Made by a program: the position numbers and the translations under genes
Assembly: GCA_027624955.1 (NCBI GenBank)
Contig: JAQBTG010000020.1
Location: 1-61,859 of the forward strand
DNA from: Pseudomonadota bacterium
Lineage (GTDB): Bacteria > Pseudomonadota > Alphaproteobacteria > UBA828
Reading direction: 5' to 3'
DNA: 61,859 nucleotides
Shown here: in pieces, positions 40,203 to 55,691 of the stretch
Layout of the letters: each line of letters opens with the position of its first letter
Position numbering within the stretch: position 1 is the first letter of the stretch
The notes under the pieces: model-generated
The model's database searches: none
The model's input: only the letters and a program-made list of their open reading frames with translations
Told to the model about the DNA's origin: nothing

Positions 40203-41543
40203 ATGCAATACCTGTTGAGGGCGGCTCTTCTTTCCCTGGTTCTCGTGCTCGCCGCGCCGGTGACGGCAGCTGACATGGCGGCCGGACAGGAGGCTTATCA
40301 GCGCGAAGACTATACGGCTGCGCTCAGCGAATGGCAGCCACTTGCCGAACGCGGCAACGCCGAAGCGCAGACCAACCTCGGCGTCCTGCATTATCACGGC
40401 CAAGGCGTGGCGCGCGATCGTGTGGAGGCCGCAAAGTGGTATCTCAAGGCCGCCAACCAGGGTCATGCCCAGGCCCAGACCAACCTCGGCGTGATGTACT
40501 ACCATGGCCAAGGCGTAGCGCAGGACTTTGCCGAGGCTGCGAATTGGTATCGCAAGGCCGGCGAACAGGGCGTCACATTTGCCCAGACCAGACTGGGCTA
40601 TATGTACGCCGAAGGCCGCGGTGTTGCGGGTGACGATGCCGCAGCAGCGACCTGGTACCGCCGGGCCGCCGATCAAGGCCACGCCCAGGCTCAGACCGAT
40701 CTAGGCGATCTCTACCTCCAGGGACGTGGCGTGGCCGAGGACCATGGCGAGGCGCTGGCATGGTATCGTCGTGCCGCTGATCAGGGCTATGCCGAAGCGC
40801 TATTCCAGCTCGGCTACATGTATCAAGAAGGCCTGGGCGTGTCCCAGGACCATGGCCAATCGTTGAAATGGTACCGCAAGGCTGCCGATCAGGGGCGCGC
40901 CGGGGCGCAAGCGATGCTCGGCGTTATCTATGCCAACGGTTTAGGCGTGACCGCAGACTATGTTCAAGCCCATATGTGGTGGAGTCTCGCGGCCAGCCAA
41001 GGTCACGACGGGGCACTCAAAAACCGCGACACTGTGGCCGGCGTCATGACCTCCGCGGAGCTTGACGAAGCCAAGAAACTCGCGCGCGACTGGGGGCCAG
41101 AGACGGCCACGATCAGGGTTGCTTCGGCGTCAGCGGCGGAGGATTTCGCGGCTGGATTGGAAGCGTACAAGAGTGGCGACTACGCGGCGGCGCTGGATAA
41201 ATTTCAGCCCCTGGCGGGGGACGGCCATGCAGAGGCCCAGTTCAATCTCGGACTGATGTATGTGAACGGTCAAGGCGTGACGCAAGACCATAGCAAGGCG
41301 GTGAAATGGTATCGCGAGGCCGCCCAACAGGAACTTGCCGGCGCCCAATATAATCTCGGCCTCATGTATGGCCTCGGCCACGGCGTAGAGCAGGATTTCA
41401 TTCTTGCCCATGTGTGGTGGACCCTTGCCGCCCGCAAGGGTCACGCCGGTGCGGTCAAGAACCGCGGCATTGTGGAAGGCGGCATGTCCGATGCGCAGCT
41501 GGCGCAAGCACAAAAACTGGTGCGCGAATGGAAGACGAAATGA
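40203..41543 (+). CDS. Secreted Sel1-repeat protein with two modules
   Basis: A 446-aa protein with a signal peptide (LLRAALLSLVLVLAAPVTAA, cleavage after about residue 22), so it is periplasmic. It contains about eight Sel1-type repeats of 36 residues (pattern AEAQTNLGVLYxxGxGVxxDxxEAxKWYxxAAxQG). They lie in two blocks: six repeats, then a linker, then two repeats. Each block opens with a GxEAYxxxDYxAAL segment and ends with an AHxWW(S/T)LAA cap and a KNR tail. Sel1 repeats bind proteins, often in envelope signalling. The RBS AAGGACC precedes ATG 40203. The next gene follows after 16 bases. Confidence 0.9.
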   Translation: MQYLLRAALLSLVLVLAAPVTAADMAAGQEAYQREDYTAALSEWQPLAERGNAEAQTNLGVLHYHGQGVARDRVEAAKWYLKAANQGHAQAQTNLGVMYYHGQGVAQDFAEAANWYRKAGEQGVTFAQTRLGYMYAEGRGVAGDDAAAATWYRRAADQGHAQAQTDLGDLYLQGRGVAEDHGEALAWYRRAADQGYAEALFQLGYMYQEGLGVSQDHGQSLKWYRKAADQGRAGAQAMLGVIYANGLGVTADYVQAHMWWSLAASQGHDGALKNRDTVAGVMTSAELDEAKKLARDWGPETATIRVASASAAEDFAAGLEAYKSGDYAAALDKFQPLAGDGHAEAQFNLGLMYVNGQGVTQDHSKAVKWYREAAQQELAGAQYNLGLMYGLGHGVEQDFILAHVWWTLAARKGHAGAVKNRGIVEGGMSDAQLAQAQKLVREWKTK

Positions 41544-41559
41544 CGCAGGAAATTGGCTG

Positions 41560-42393
41560 ATGGTATTTACGGAACAGGATATCGAATTCGAAGGAACGTC
41601 GGTCCATTTTTGGGAAGGCGGTTCAGGATTTCCGATCCTGATGCTGCACGGCTCCGGGCCGGGCGCCGGGACGATGGGCAATTGGCGCTTTGTGCTTGAG
41701 CCGCTCGCGGCGTCGTATCATATCCTCGCCACCGATCTCATTGGCTTCGGCGAATCGGGACGCAAACAGGAAGAACCCTATTTCGATATCGGCCTGTGGC
41801 GCCGCCAAGCGCAGTTCATGCTCGATCGTTTGCTCCCAGGGCCTGCTGGCACACGGGGGGGGCCGGTCGGTATTATCGGCCATTCGCTGTCGGCATCGTT
41901 GGCGCTGGGTCTCGCCGCCGCCAATGAGCGGGTGACCAAAGTGCTGACCACCGGCGCGATGGGCGGGCATTTTGAGGTCAACGAATCGACCAATCTGTGC
42001 TGGACCTTCCCCGAGACGCGCGCGAACTTGCGCGAAGCGGTCGAATGCCTGGTCTATGACCGCTCCGTGGTGACCGACGCGCTGTTGGACAGCCGCATGG
42101 AAATTCTCCATGACGGCGAATACGGACCTTATTTCCGTTCCATGTTCGCCGGCGGCAAACAACAATATGTCGATGCTGCGGTGCTGCCGACGGACATGCT
42201 GAACGCACTCACCTGCGATGTGGTGATGATGCATGGACGCGACGACCGGCCCTTTCCCTACGCGGAAAACAGCCTCGCGCTGAGCGCCGCCATTTCCCAT
42301 GCCGACGTGATTTTAGTTGGCCGCTGCGGCCATTCGCCGGCGTTGGAACATCCGCAAAAACTTCTAAGCGCGGCGAAACTGCTATTCGGCTGA
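41560..42393 (+). CDS. Alpha/beta hydrolase, meta-cleavage product hydrolase-like
   Basis: A 277-aa serine hydrolase. The oxyanion motif HGSGPGAG (30-37) is a hallmark of carbon-carbon bond hydrolases such as MhpC and BphD. The nucleophile is Ser109 in GHSLSASLAL, the acid is in HGRDDRP and the base is the His of GRCGHSPALEHP. Such enzymes hydrolyse ring-cleavage products of catechols. ATG 41560 (AGGA upstream) was chosen; the frame extends upstream only into the Sel1 gene. It fits with the flavin monooxygenase and the interrupted extradiol dioxygenase in the same region. Confidence 0.85.
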   Translation: MVFTEQDIEFEGTSVHFWEGGSGFPILMLHGSGPGAGTMGNWRFVLEPLAASYHILATDLIGFGESGRKQEEPYFDIGLWRRQAQFMLDRLLPGPAGTRGGPVGIIGHSLSASLALGLAAANERVTKVLTTGAMGGHFEVNESTNLCWTFPETRANLREAVECLVYDRSVVTDALLDSRMEILHDGEYGPYFRSMFAGGKQQYVDAAVLPTDMLNALTCDVVMMHGRDDRPFPYAENSLALSAAISHADVILVGRCGHSPALEHPQKLLSAAKLLFG

Positions 42394-42515: not shown

Positions 42516-43883
42516 ATGGCAAGACATATCAGCTGCGGGAAACTGTTCACCGGTCTCGGCGATGGCGCCGAAGCGGAGCAAACCCTAGTTCTCGACGGCG
42601 ATACCATTCGCTATGTCGGCCCCAGCGCGGGCGCGCCGGCGCCGGCGCCGGGCGACGAGATGATTGATCATTCAAATCATTTCGTGCTGCCCGGCCTGAT
42701 CGACATGCATGTTCATCTGTCTTATGGCAACGCCAAGTCGGAAGAGGATATCGATCTCTACGCATCGGTTGAGTTTCGCGCGCTGCGCGGGCTGGAAGCG
42801 GCGCAGCGGGTGCTGGCGGCAGGCTTCACCACGATTGCCGATCCCACCACCACCGGGCGCGTCAGCCTGGCGATCCGCGACGCCATCGATGCCGGCTTGT
42901 TCGCCGGCCCGCGCATCTCGTCCTCGGGCCGGCAAATCACCAACCGCCAGGGCTTGTCGGACTGGTACCCGAGCTGGGTCGGCGTGCCGGAAACCTCGAT
43001 CGGCGTGTTGTGCCGCGACGCAGCGGAGGGCATTGCGGAGATCCGGCTGGAAGTCAAAGACGGGGTCGACTTTATCAAGATCGCGATCGACGGCGATTCG
43101 ATGAACCCGTCTTCAAACGTGTTGGTCGCGGGTTACGACCAGGACGAGATGACAGCGATGGTGCGCGAGGCGCATCGCCTCGGCAAGAAAGTGGTGGTGC
43201 ATGCGCGCGGCGCCGAGGGTGTGCTCTATTCGGCACGCGCCAAAGCGGATGTGATCTTCCATGCCGCTTGGATGGATGATGCCGGGCTCGAGGCGGTGAT
43301 CGAGAATGGCTGCGCGTTGTGTCCGAGTCTAAGCCTGGTGGTCAACGATATCGATTTCACCCGGCCCGGCGACGGCTGCTATCCGGCGTTTCCCGAAGCG
43401 CATCAGCGCGAGCTTGATCGCGCCCGCGAAAGCCTGCCCAAGGCGCGCCAGGCGGGCGTGAAATTCATGCTCGGCAGCGATGCCGGATTTGCAGTAACGC
43501 CTTACGGCGAATGGCACGCGCGCGAGCTTGAGCATTATGTCAAATATCTCGGGTTTAGCCCGGCTGAAGCGATCAAATGCGCGACCGTCAACAATGGCGA
43601 TTTCGTCCGTGAAAATGGAAAAGTAGGCGCGCTCGAAGTTGGACGATTGGCGGATATTCTGATCATCGACGGCGATCCGCTTGCCGATATCTCGGTGCTG
43701 CAAGACCGCGCGCGCATCCGCGAGATCATTCAGGGTGGCGAGACGGTGAATATCGAGATCAACAAGAACACCAGGCGCCTGCGGTCCGAGTTTTCCTACG
43801 ACATGTGGAGCGATGTCTATACCCAAGCGCGCATCGAAGAGATCGGTATGGCGCGCGGCGTCGCCCAACGCGCGGCCGAGTAA
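42516..43883 (+). CDS. Amidohydrolase family metal-dependent hydrolase
   Basis: A 455-aa TIM-barrel hydrolase of the imidazolonepropionase/dipeptidase-like amidohydrolase group. Metal ligands are HVH (His65, His67) after LPGLIDM, the Lys in FIKIAIDG, His in VVVHARG, His in VIFHAAWMD and Asp in MLGSDAGF. The C-terminus returns to the beta-sandwich (VGALEVGRLADILIIDGDPL) and then carries an unusual 40-residue tail. AAAGGAG lies upstream of ATG 42516. The substrate is unknown; an amide or lactone in the neighbouring catabolic pathway is a guess. Confidence 0.9.
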   Translation: MARHISCGKLFTGLGDGAEAEQTLVLDGDTIRYVGPSAGAPAPAPGDEMIDHSNHFVLPGLIDMHVHLSYGNAKSEEDIDLYASVEFRALRGLEAAQRVLAAGFTTIADPTTTGRVSLAIRDAIDAGLFAGPRISSSGRQITNRQGLSDWYPSWVGVPETSIGVLCRDAAEGIAEIRLEVKDGVDFIKIAIDGDSMNPSSNVLVAGYDQDEMTAMVREAHRLGKKVVVHARGAEGVLYSARAKADVIFHAAWMDDAGLEAVIENGCALCPSLSLVVNDIDFTRPGDGCYPAFPEAHQRELDRARESLPKARQAGVKFMLGSDAGFAVTPYGEWHARELEHYVKYLGFSPAEAIKCATVNNGDFVRENGKVGALEVGRLADILIIDGDPLADISVLQDRARIREIIQGGETVNIEINKNTRRLRSEFSYDMWSDVYTQARIEEIGMARGVAQRAAE

Positions 43884-43932
43884 GACGCGCGAGCCGCCAA
43901 GCCGTGCAAGCCGACAACGAATAGCCCGCGGG

Positions 43933-45105
43933 ATGTCAAAGCCATCCATTACGCCGCCCGAATTGCGCGACCGTATCGAGGCGCTGGTCCCGGTGCTGCG
44001 CGAGCGCGCACCCGCCGCCGAGACATTGCGCCGCCTGCCTGACGAGACCGTCCGCGACCTGGTGGAACTGGGATTGATCCGCGCGACCTTGCCAAGCCGG
44101 CTCGGCGGCGCGGAAATCGATTACCGCACCATGATGGAACTTGTCGCCACCTTGGCGCATGGCTGCGGCTCGACCGCCTGGGTCGCGTGTAACTTCATGA
44201 GCTGCACCTTCCTGCTCGCGCTGTGGCCGCGCGAAGCGCAGGACGAAGTTTGGAACGAATCGCTCGACGCCATTCTCACTGGGACGTTGGTATTTCCCGC
44301 CGGCCGCGCCAAGCGCGTCGAGGGTGGCTATCGTTTGAGCGGGCGCTGGCCATTTGGCAGCGGCATCGATCACGCCGATTGGAACATATTTGCCGCGACC
44401 GAAGAGGACGCCGGGACGCTCCGAATGTTCGTCCTGCCAAAATCCGACTTCACGATTATTGATACTTGGCGCGCTGCGGGCCTGCGCGGGACCGGCAGCC
44501 AAGATGTCGCCGTGGACGATGTATTTGTGCCGGACCATCGGACGCTCCGCGCTGCGGATACGCGCGATGGCACCAGCCCGGGATGTGCCGTCAACCCGGC
44601 GACGGTTTATCGCGTACCGTTGTTTGCCTTGTTCTACAGTTGGGTCGGCGCCGCCTTGCTTGGGCTCGCCGAGGCGGCGGTCGATGACTATGTGGCGGCG
44701 ACACGAAGCCGGATCGCGCGCTATAGCGGCCAACGCATCGCCGACTATGGCACCATACAGGTGAATCTCGCTGAAGCGATTACATCGGTCGATGTCGCGC
44801 GCCGTCTCTATCTGCAGAATTGCGACGAGGCGATGGCCATTGTCGAGGCCGGCGATCTTCCGACGTTGATGCAGCGTGCGCGCTACCGGGCCGAAGGTGC
44901 ACATGCCGCGACGCTCTGTTGCCGTGCCGTGGATCTGGTCTTCACCGCGAGCGGCGGCGGCGGAGTCTATGACGAGAATTCATTGTCACGCGCGTTCCGC
45001 GACGTGCATACCGGGCGCGCCCACATCACCCAGAACTGGGAGGTCAATGCGACCACATTTGGCCGCGTCGCACTCGGCCTGGAGACCGACAATCCGCTGC
45101 TCTAA
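43933..45105 (+). CDS. Flavin-dependent monooxygenase, acyl-CoA dehydrogenase fold (HsaA-like)
   Basis: A 390-aa protein of the acyl-CoA dehydrogenase superfamily, in the branch of two-component flavin monooxygenases (HsaA, HpaB C2 type). The N-terminal text LVELGLIRATLPSRLGGAEIDYRTMMELVATLAHGCGS and GSTAWV, LSGRWPFGSGIDHADW and RGTGSQDVAVDDVFVP fit this group, and the acyl-CoA dehydrogenase catalytic Glu context is not evident. Such enzymes hydroxylate phenols with reduced flavin from a partner reductase, which is not found nearby. ATG 43933 is preferred over the long upstream overlap with the amidohydrolase gene. Confidence 0.85.
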   Translation: MSKPSITPPELRDRIEALVPVLRERAPAAETLRRLPDETVRDLVELGLIRATLPSRLGGAEIDYRTMMELVATLAHGCGSTAWVACNFMSCTFLLALWPREAQDEVWNESLDAILTGTLVFPAGRAKRVEGGYRLSGRWPFGSGIDHADWNIFAATEEDAGTLRMFVLPKSDFTIIDTWRAAGLRGTGSQDVAVDDVFVPDHRTLRAADTRDGTSPGCAVNPATVYRVPLFALFYSWVGAALLGLAEAAVDDYVAATRSRIARYSGQRIADYGTIQVNLAEAITSVDVARRLYLQNCDEAMAIVEAGDLPTLMQRARYRAEGAHAATLCCRAVDLVFTASGGGGVYDENSLSRAFRDVHTGRAHITQNWEVNATTFGRVALGLETDNPLL

Positions 45106-45123: not shown

Positions 45124-46065
45124 TTAGGGGCGCACCGACGCCGACTTTGCCCGCGTGGTGACCAGAAACAAGCCAGCGAACATGAGTACAAGCGCGCCCC
45201 AAATCCAGGGGCTGTGGCGTTCGCCAAAAATCAGCACAGCCCAACCGATGCCCGCCAGTGGAGAGATGTAATTGTAGCTGGCGAAAAAAACTGGGCCGGC
45301 GAGACGAATTATCTCGAAAAATAGAATCCAAAATATAGCGTTTAGGAAGGTGACACCTATCAGGGCCAAACCGCCATCGTCCAGGCCGGCATCAAAAAAC
45401 CACCAGCTATTGGTTGCCGCCATGACCACAAAAAGTAGTGCGGACGCACACAGTAAAAGCCCCGCGGCCAGGGGAATGGAAATTGACTCGGGAGGGCGCA
45501 GGATGGCGACCAGCGCATTAGCAAAACCGTAACAGAGCGGCGCAATCAAGGCGAAGAGGACCCAGCCGACCATCTCGGGCTGCGGCAAACTGGATTTCGG
45601 CAAGACCACCAAAAGGACGGCCGCAAGCCCAATGCATAAACCGGCGAAACGCAGCGTGGTGTAACGCTCGATGCGAAACATGAGGGCAAAGCCAAACGTC
45701 AGCGCCGGCACCAAGGCCTGCCCGAGGCTGACGACCCCGGCGGGCAGGCGGTCTGCAACATAATTGAGCGCCAGAAATGGGACAACGAACTGGAGCACTG
45801 CGGCGACGCCATAGAGCCTCAAATAGGGCCAGCCTAGCGGCACGCGCTTTGCCGTGGCGAAGGTGACGATCAACAGAATCAAACCGGCGCCGAGACTTTG
45901 CCAAAACACATAGGCGACGACGGGAATGCCGGAAGTGATAGCAATTTTGTTGAGAGAGAAACTCAGACCCCACGTGATGCCACAAGCAAACAGCAACGCC
46001 GATGGCAAAAGCGGCACGCGCGCCAAACCGCCTGTCAGGCCATGCCAGTTTCCTTTCCGTGTCAT
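45124..46065 (-). CDS. EamA/DMT-family transporter
   Basis: A 313-aa integral membrane protein with about ten hydrophobic helices in two EamA repeats, typical of drug/metabolite exporters. Each half has the usual layout (WGLSFSLNKIAI at the start of the first; FANALVAILRPPES between the halves; SYNYISPLAGIGWAVLIFGE near the end). ATG 46065 is preferred over GTG 46080. It is convergent with the monooxygenase and divergent from the dioxygenase, so it may export or import an intermediate of that pathway, but this is only positional. Confidence 0.9.
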   Translation of the reverse strand: MTRKGNWHGLTGGLARVPLLPSALLFACGITWGLSFSLNKIAITSGIPVVAYVFWQSLGAGLILLIVTFATAKRVPLGWPYLRLYGVAAVLQFVVPFLALNYVADRLPAGVVSLGQALVPALTFGFALMFRIERYTTLRFAGLCIGLAAVLLVVLPKSSLPQPEMVGWVLFALIAPLCYGFANALVAILRPPESISIPLAAGLLLCASALLFVVMAATNSWWFFDAGLDDGGLALIGVTFLNAIFWILFFEIIRLAGPVFFASYNYISPLAGIGWAVLIFGERHSPWIWGALVLMFAGLFLVTTRAKSASVRP

Positions 46066-46272
46066 CAGATTCAATTCCACTCAATATGGTTGTGATGGAT
46101 CTTAATGCATCAGACCGGGCAACTCCGCTGCTATATCTGCCTCGGAGGCGCGCCGGTTGCAGCCTTACGTATCCACGAATATCTTACGAAGCACCGGCCC
46201 CGCCGGCGTGAGGGTGCGGGTCGCCAGCAAAGTTTCTTAACATGATTGCAGAGCATCTTAGGGAAGAGGGCC

Positions 46273-47190
46273 ATGGCCGTTAAATCGTTGCAGCATTTTT
46301 GCCTGGCGGTTCCCGACCCGGCGCTCGGCGGAAAATTCTATTAAGATTTCGGACTCGAAGCCGACGACCGAGGAAACAGCCTCGCACTGCGCTGCGCTGG
46401 GCGGGATCAGGATCAAGTCGTCCTGGTCGAGGGCGCGCGCCGGAAGTTGCATCATATCAGTCTTGGCACCGACACAGCCGGGCTCGAAACGCTAAAAAAG
46501 GAGCTCGAAGCAAACGGCACCAAATTGCTCGACCCGCCGGCACTGGTGTCCGGCGAGGGCCTGTGGTTCCGCGACCCGGAGGGCGTGCTCCTTAACCTCT
46601 CGGTCGCCGATCCGGCGCCGTGGGCCGACGCACCGGAATGGCGCATCAATAATCCGGGGCATTACGACCGCCGCGGTGTGCGTGGATTTCCGGCCCGCGA
46701 CACCGTGGTCAAGCCGCGCCGCCTCGGTCATCTGCTCTCCTTCACGACAAATATCGAAGACAAAATCGATTTCTACACCCGCGTACTGGGCATGCGGCTG
46801 AGCGACCGCGCACAGGATATGGTAGCGTTTTTACATGTCCCCGGCGGCAGCGATCATCATGTGCTGGCGTTTCTGGCGGGCGAGCGGCCGGGCTTCCACC
46901 ATGCCAGTTTTAAAGTCGCGAACGTCGATGAGGTCGGCCTTGGCGGCTGCCAAATGATCGCTAAAGGCCATCGCAATGGCTGGGGACTGGGCCGCCATGT
47001 GATTGGCTCAAACTTCTTTCACTATATCCGCGACCCGTGGAACGGGATGGCCGAATATTTTTGCGATATCGACTATATTCCTGCCGATGCGGTGTGGCAG
47101 CCCAAGGACTGGCCGCTGGAAGACTCGCTTTATGTATGGGGCCCGGATCTGCCGGAAGATTTCCCGATCAATTTCGAAGAGCCCGCATAG
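46273..47190 (+). pseudogene. Extradiol dioxygenase (VOC family) interrupted by in-frame TAA
   Basis: The frame from ATG 46273 (GAGGG upstream) to the stop at 47188-47190 encodes a two-domain vicinal-oxygen-chelate protein of 305 codons, except that codon 24 is TAA (46342-46344), inside KFY*DFGLEADD. Reading is in frame and protein-like on both sides, so a single base change such as GAA to TAA explains it. The catalytic C-terminal domain keeps a plausible iron triad: His in RLGHLLSF, His in GFHHASF and Glu in GMAEYFCDI. The part after the stop could start at TTG 46447 but would lack about 58 residues of the N-terminal domain. A recent nonsense mutation or a base-call error is likely. Confidence 0.85.
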
Positions 47191-54467: not shown

Positions 54468-55691
54468 CTACAACGGCTCGCCACGCGTCAGGCGTGGCAG
54501 CTCGCCAACCACACCCATGGCATGGCGCATAAAGATGCTCTTCAGACGCGGCGAGCGGTTAACCGCCGCAAGGCCAAGGTCGCGCGCCAGGCGCAGCGGC
54601 GCGCTGTTGTTTGAGAACAGGCGATTGAGCCCGTCGGTGACGGCAATCAAGGCCAGCGCGTCGAAGCGTCGCCTTTGTTGATAGCGGGCGAGCAAGTCGG
54701 GAGCGCCGATATCGAGACCCAGGCGGTAGCGGTCGACGATCAGTTCGGCCAGCACCGCCACATCACGCACCCCGAGATTAAAACCCTGGCCGGCGAGCGG
54801 GTGGATAGCATGCGCTGCATCACCGGCCAACGCCAAGCGCTCGCCGGTATAGTGGTTCGCGTGGGTGAGCGCGAGCGGATAGCTCCAGCGCGGACCAATG
54901 ACTTCCAGTGGCCCAAGAAAATCGCCAAAACGCGATGCCAACTCGGCAAGAAATTCGCTATCGCCAAGAGCAAGAAGCTCCGGCGCCAGGCTGGTCTTCT
55001 CGGTCCACACGATGGACGAGCGCCCCGCCGTCATCGGTAGAATGGCGAAGGGACCGGCGGGCAAGAAGCGCTCATGGGCAATGCCGCGGTGCGGGCGCGC
55101 ATGACGCACGGTGCACACGATCCCGGTCTGAGCATAGGACCAGTCCATCGTGCGGATGCCGGCGGCTTGGCGCAACCGCGAGTTCCGGCCATCGGCGGCT
55201 ATGGCGAGACGCGCGGAGATGCGCCGGCCGTCGGCGAGAATCGCTTGGATACGCTCACCCTGAGGCGAGAATTCTGTGACCGACACCGGCGCCAGATGGC
55301 GCAGCTTTGGGCAGCCCGCAACGGCATCCAACAGCGCCACACGGGTAACGCGATTCTCGACGATCCAGCCGAGCGGATCAGTGCCGACCTCGCGATGGTC
55401 GTAGTGCAGAAAAAGCGGCGCGTCGCTGTCCGACACGCGAATCTCCAATATCGGCTCGGCCTCCTCAGCCATGCCGTCCCACACGCCAATGCCATCAAGC
55501 ACGCGTTTCGAGCCATAGGCGATGGAGCAGACGCGGCCATCGAACTCGGCGCTCTGTATCCGCGCTGGATCTTCACCATCCATGACCACTGTCTCGAGAC
55601 CGGCGCGCGCCAGCGCTACGCCGAGGCTGAGCCCGACCAAACCACCGCCGGCGATAACTACATCGGCCGTAGTTTGCCCGTCCGCCGTCAT
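54468..55691 (-). CDS. UbiH/UbiF/COQ6-family FAD monooxygenase
   Basis: A 407-aa aromatic-ring hydroxylase of ubiquinone synthesis. The FAD-binding motif VIAGGGLVGLSLGVALARAG is near the N-terminus, and the C-terminal FAD motif is LAGDAAHAIHPLAGQGFNLGVRDVA. The central DGR motif RLAIAADGRNSRLRQ and ESEFDGRVCSIAYGSKRVL-like text are present. ATG 55691 was chosen to give the family start. Which ring position it hydroxylates cannot be told from the sequence; COQ7 at 38 kb does another step. It is divergent from an amidase gene. Confidence 0.92.
   Translation of the reverse strand: MTADGQTTADVVIAGGGLVGLSLGVALARAGLETVVMDGEDPARIQSAEFDGRVCSIAYGSKRVLDGIGVWDGMAEEAEPILEIRVSDSDAPLFLHYDHREVGTDPLGWIVENRVTRVALLDAVAGCPKLRHLAPVSVTEFSPQGERIQAILADGRRISARLAIAADGRNSRLRQAAGIRTMDWSYAQTGIVCTVRHARPHRGIAHERFLPAGPFAILPMTAGRSSIVWTEKTSLAPELLALGDSEFLAELASRFGDFLGPLEVIGPRWSYPLALTHANHYTGERLALAGDAAHAIHPLAGQGFNLGVRDVAVLAELIVDRYRLGLDIGAPDLLARYQQRRRFDALALIAVTDGLNRLFSNNSAPLRLARDLGLAAVNRSPRLKSIFMRHAMGVVGELPRLTRGEPL

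Follow-up and report, generated by a model that had tools for sequence, protein, structure and literature searches.

A single in-frame TAA at codon 24 interrupts an otherwise healthy type I extradiol dioxygenase-like gene in an alphaproteobacterial draft genome

Introduction

Type I extradiol dioxygenases, among them BphC, HsaC, XylE/catechol 2,3-dioxygenase and homoprotocatechuate 2,3-dioxygenase, have a two-module fold and a 2-His-1-Glu set of metal ligands. Both features are common to a gene in the window, that is, the whole stretch of 61,859 nucleotides analysed here (contig JAQBTG010000020.1, assembly GCA_027624955.1, UBA828 lineage). Its reading frame contains one stop codon close to the start. 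Here we describe the gene, its relatives and neighbours and the other nonsense lesions detected in the same genome, and we weigh the explanations that would account for the interruption.

Results

The interrupted gene, of the type I extradiol (VOC superfamily) dioxygenase-like kind, occupies positions 46273 to 47190 of the forward strand. Translation from ATG 46273 gives 305 codons followed by the terminal stop (47188-47190), with one internal stop, the TAA of codon 24 (46342-46344), and thereby confirms the coordinates, the codon number and the single in-frame TAA of the initial annotation. The ATG is preceded by a purine-rich stretch similar to a ribosome-binding site, TTAGGGAAGAGGGCC (46258-46272, forward strand; read directly), and purine-rich stretches also precede the same start codon in congeners. 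The residues flanking the TAA, MAVKSLQHFCLAVPDPALGGKFY before it and DFGLEADD... after it, are colinear and gapless with the single open frames of three congeners, at 72-82% identity, and such an alignment on both sides of the stop makes the interrupted frame more than chance. No second copy of the gene was found in the genome, where the next match is 28% identical over 127 residues. In the assembly, the interruption of an otherwise healthy and ordinary dioxygenase gene by a single codon is real.

The orthologues in three congeneric draft genomes (G003:C198, G001:C268 and G002:C239) are 82, 78 and 72% identical to the window gene, N-terminus included. They have the same start codon and the same length, run without gaps through codon 24 and carry GAG (Glu) at that position. 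A scan of the GTDB collection yielded 43 homologues, and each of the 39 that cover codon 24 has a sense codon there (Thr in 17, Glu in 8, Ala in 5, Ser in 4, Asn in 3, Lys and Arg in 1 each), a variability which indicates that many residues are tolerated at this place. Among the covering homologues the stop at codon 24 is found in this assembly only. The comparison of the codon in close relatives had been proposed in the initial annotation, together with the possibility that the conserved protein begins near 46447; since the homologues start at codon 1, and none of them near 46447, the interruption stands. By this alignment codon 24 belongs to the gene, and neither the frame nor the start is in doubt. 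The homologue of another draft genome (JASLLV010000051.1) has an in-frame TAG of its own (L060:516-518), about 20 codons before the C-terminus, between the residues PEED and LYLWGP.

The part of the product located after the stop matches PF00903 of Pfam (Glyoxalase/dioxygenase superfamily) with 54 bits (cut-off 20.6), and the VOC/Glyoxalase domain is matched by all 40 aligned members. The nearest NCBIfam models are those of extradiol dioxygenases (HpaD, catechol 2,3-dioxygenase, BphC and HsaC), all far below cut-off: 75.5 bits against 321 for HpaD, 47.5 against 366 for BphC and 31.2 against 450 for HsaC, scored with codons 25-305 only, the shortfall being far bigger than 24 residues could explain. 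This pattern makes the class of the enzyme clear, and not its substrate. An AlphaFold2 model of codons 25-305 was built with 40 homologues (pLDDT 89.8, pTM 0.88; an earlier model from four sequences, with pLDDT 36, was useless) and compared with solved structures by VIA-align and also by Foldseek. It matched both modules of the type I extradiol dioxygenases 3lm4 (Z 26.5), 3b59 (Z 26.2) and 1mpy (Z 25.8), and further matches were 1f1r (Z 24.9), HsaC 2zyq (Z 24.0) and BphC 1han (Z 23.0), each of them spanning approximately 230-255 residues. The two-module fold of the solved members is hence predicted for the window gene, with Z 23-26 against BphC, HsaC, HPCD and C23O. Residue 1 of the model (codon 25) corresponds to about residue 22-38 of the solved enzymes, so that the part preceding the stop is the start of the first module. 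The iron-ligand motifs read in the initial annotation, RLGHLLSF, GFHHASF and GMAEYF, are all present, and the alignment places the ligands at H153, H210 (the second His of GFHHASF) and E261, which are invariant in 43/43 homologues and also aligned to 3b59. The gene is best explained as one that encodes, or encoded, a type I extradiol dioxygenase of the Fe(II) type, predicted to cleave a catechol-like ring.

The dioxygenase gene is separated by a divergent intergenic region (46081-46272, forward strand) from an intact EamA-family transporter gene (45124-46080, reverse strand) that is 78% identical and syntenic in congener G001; in the intergenic region itself 103 of 177 aligned bases are identical to those of G001, with the same gene order. 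Three further genes, all intact and on the forward strand, code for an HsaA/HpaH-like flavin-dependent oxygenase with the acyl-CoA dehydrogenase fold (43813-45105), an amidohydrolase (42516-43883) and an HsaD/BphD-like alpha/beta hydrolase (41404-42393). The order HsaA-like, EamA, dioxygenase found in the window is that of G001. Congener G002 retains the amidohydrolase, directly upstream of the dioxygenase, and in G003 the neighbouring gene for an NAD-binding (epimerase-like) protein lies on the dioxygenase's contig. These neighbours suggest a ring-cleavage module, intact in the relatives, within what may be here a small aromatic-degradation neighbourhood. The presence of HsaA-like, HsaD-like, amidohydrolase and EamA genes makes the catabolic cluster of the initial annotation plausible, but the cut-offs of the named steroid-degradation equivalogs were all missed (316 bits against 450 with NF045629 for the HsaA-like oxygenase, 80 against 400 with NF045632 for the HsaD-like hydrolase), and the name hsa cluster was therefore rejected for this locus.

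The dN/dS between the window gene and its G003 orthologue is 0.16, and among the intact congeners themselves it is 0.13-0.20. Private changes amount to 21.75 synonymous and 8.25 nonsynonymous on the window branch, and to 20.5 and 6.5 on the G001 branch, the two branches being similar in how far they alter the protein. Judged by these figures, purifying selection has acted on the dioxygenase up to very recent times, or still does. Since constraint is unrelaxed on the window lineage, the lesion would be either very recent or not real.

The assembly is a draft of 84 contigs, and a sample of 1.66 Mb (46% of the genome) was scanned in stretches for in-frame stops with a strong coding signal, by codon and hexamer scores, both before and after them and with no nearby restart. 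These scans are good for long interrupted genes and weak on the dioxygenase, whose upstream part is short; as cases of this kind score weakly, the lesion counts are minimums. At least five supported lesions consisting of a single in-frame TAA or TAG were found in the 1.66 Mb, the dioxygenase included. A WD40/caspase-like gene of about 1007 codons (TAG, C19:30653, reverse strand) and a Tag-like DNA-3-methyladenine glycosylase gene (TAG, C1:29931, reverse strand) have TGG in three congeners at the corresponding position. An AMP-ligase-like gene carries a TAA (C19:9693) where relatives at 47-52% identity have GAT, and the genome's only CtrA response regulator carries a TAA in its DNA-binding domain (C15:34640), with a match to NF045991 of 405 bits across the stop (cut-off 350). 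The interrupted AMP-ligase-like gene adjoins an intact tandem paralogue, 46% identical (C19 10255-11763). No frameshifts were detected in the sampled 1.66 Mb by the same coding-score scan, the sensitivity of which for them is low. Other candidates, namely the stop at 55038 of the window, C17:31808, C3:34584, C2:109464 and similar ones, were recognized by eye as normal gene ends or non-coding frames, and the literature searched yielded no relevant report of in-frame stops in metagenome-assembled genomes. The lesion set could be explained either by a few genuine nonsense pseudogenes or by substitution errors scattered in the draft consensus.

Discussion

A single stop without counterpart in the sequenced relatives points to a freshly broken gene or to a single-base assembly error, not to a novel mode of gene regulation. 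We lean slightly towards a very young nonsense pseudogene or a strain polymorphism, that is, a nonsense allele carried by part of the population. A substitution would have changed codon 24 to TAA in the strain behind this assembly, the base being really present in the cells; translation from ATG 46273 would end after 23 residues and, since the next 34 codons lack a good restart, no working enzyme would be made and the product would be lost. The undecayed state of the rest of the gene implies that such a mutation would be very recent. The uniqueness of the TAA among the covering homologues and the open frames of the congeners, colinear from the same start, argue for the young pseudogene, and genuine pseudogenes arising now and then could account for a rate of five supported lesions in 1.66 Mb. 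Counting against it, the other lesions, the only CtrA gene among them, and the lack of detected frameshifts would also be expected from scattered consensus errors. A close rival, with a probability not far below one half, is indeed a single-base error of the draft consensus, arising from a base call or from a chimeric or low-coverage column, with the gene intact in the living cells. The 84 contigs of the draft, the four or more other genes in which one TAA or TAG breaks an otherwise intact frame, with the sole CtrA gene and the two genes with TGG in congeners among them, the outcome of the low-sensitivity frameshift scan and the unrelaxed purifying selection acting elsewhere in the dioxygenase gene are all consistent with such an error. 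If some 4-5% of random coding substitutions produced a stop (our own estimate), 5-10 lesions would need about 1e-4 errors per base, a rate plausible for thinly covered contigs. On the other hand, there is nothing unusual about five real nonsense pseudogenes in 1.66 Mb, and several alphaproteobacterial orders, Rhodospirillales among them, can do without CtrA (PMC8116508), so that an interrupted CtrA gene is no proof of error and was rejected as such.

The very young pseudogene and the base-call error had both been offered in the initial annotation, and both survive. Its third option, phase switching, is unsupported, as a substitution gave rise to the stop and inspection by eye showed no slippable repeat at the site (TTCTATTAAGATTTC). 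A shortened functional protein starting at TTG 46447, or at another weak start, is very unlikely. This TTG is the first in-frame ATG, GTG or TTG after the TAA, 34 codons on, and the open reading frame that it begins (46447-47190, forward strand, 247 aa) includes the three Fe ligands and the entire C-terminal module; yet no homologue starts there, the GGAAG in front is too close to the TTG for a normal ribosome-binding site, and the loss of the first 58 residues, a shortening of the N-terminus already pointed out in the initial annotation, would remove the start of the first module, a part that all the solved relatives listed possess. Still less credit is due to functional readthrough or recoding, in which the TAA of codon 24 would be translated or some stops would be reassigned in the genome. 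Before and after the TAA alike the frame is intact and under constraint, as recoding would have it, but none of the 40 complete tRNA genes, all with sense anticodons, would read UAA or UAG, and the stops ending 1146 long ORFs sampled are TGA in 493, TAG in 330 and TAA in 323, so that TAA works as a stop, and TAA and TAG together terminate over half of them. Moreover, the congener codons differ by lesion (GAG for the dioxygenase, TGG for two of the others), which does not fit a single reassigned meaning, and a stop common to no homologue is not a conserved recoding site. That UAA would be suppressed at codon 24 to give the full-length enzyme, with the UAA or UAG codons of the CtrA, glycosylase, WD40/caspase-like and AMP-ligase genes read through too, is the most improbable proposal of all.

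The case has little importance outside annotation, where automatic calling would yield a truncated dioxygenase of 247 aa that would be wrong under both main readings. Read support is also needed before any single nonsense lesion of this draft genome is taken as biology.

Compared with the solved type I extradiol dioxygenases, the window gene is only 20-28% identical and has its first module opened by a stop. The congeneric orthologues differ from it at codon 24 in having the Glu codon GAG where it has TAA. Young nonsense pseudogenes of bacteria are characterized by a single nonsense codon, no other decay and intact orthologues in relatives, and the same is found in the window gene.
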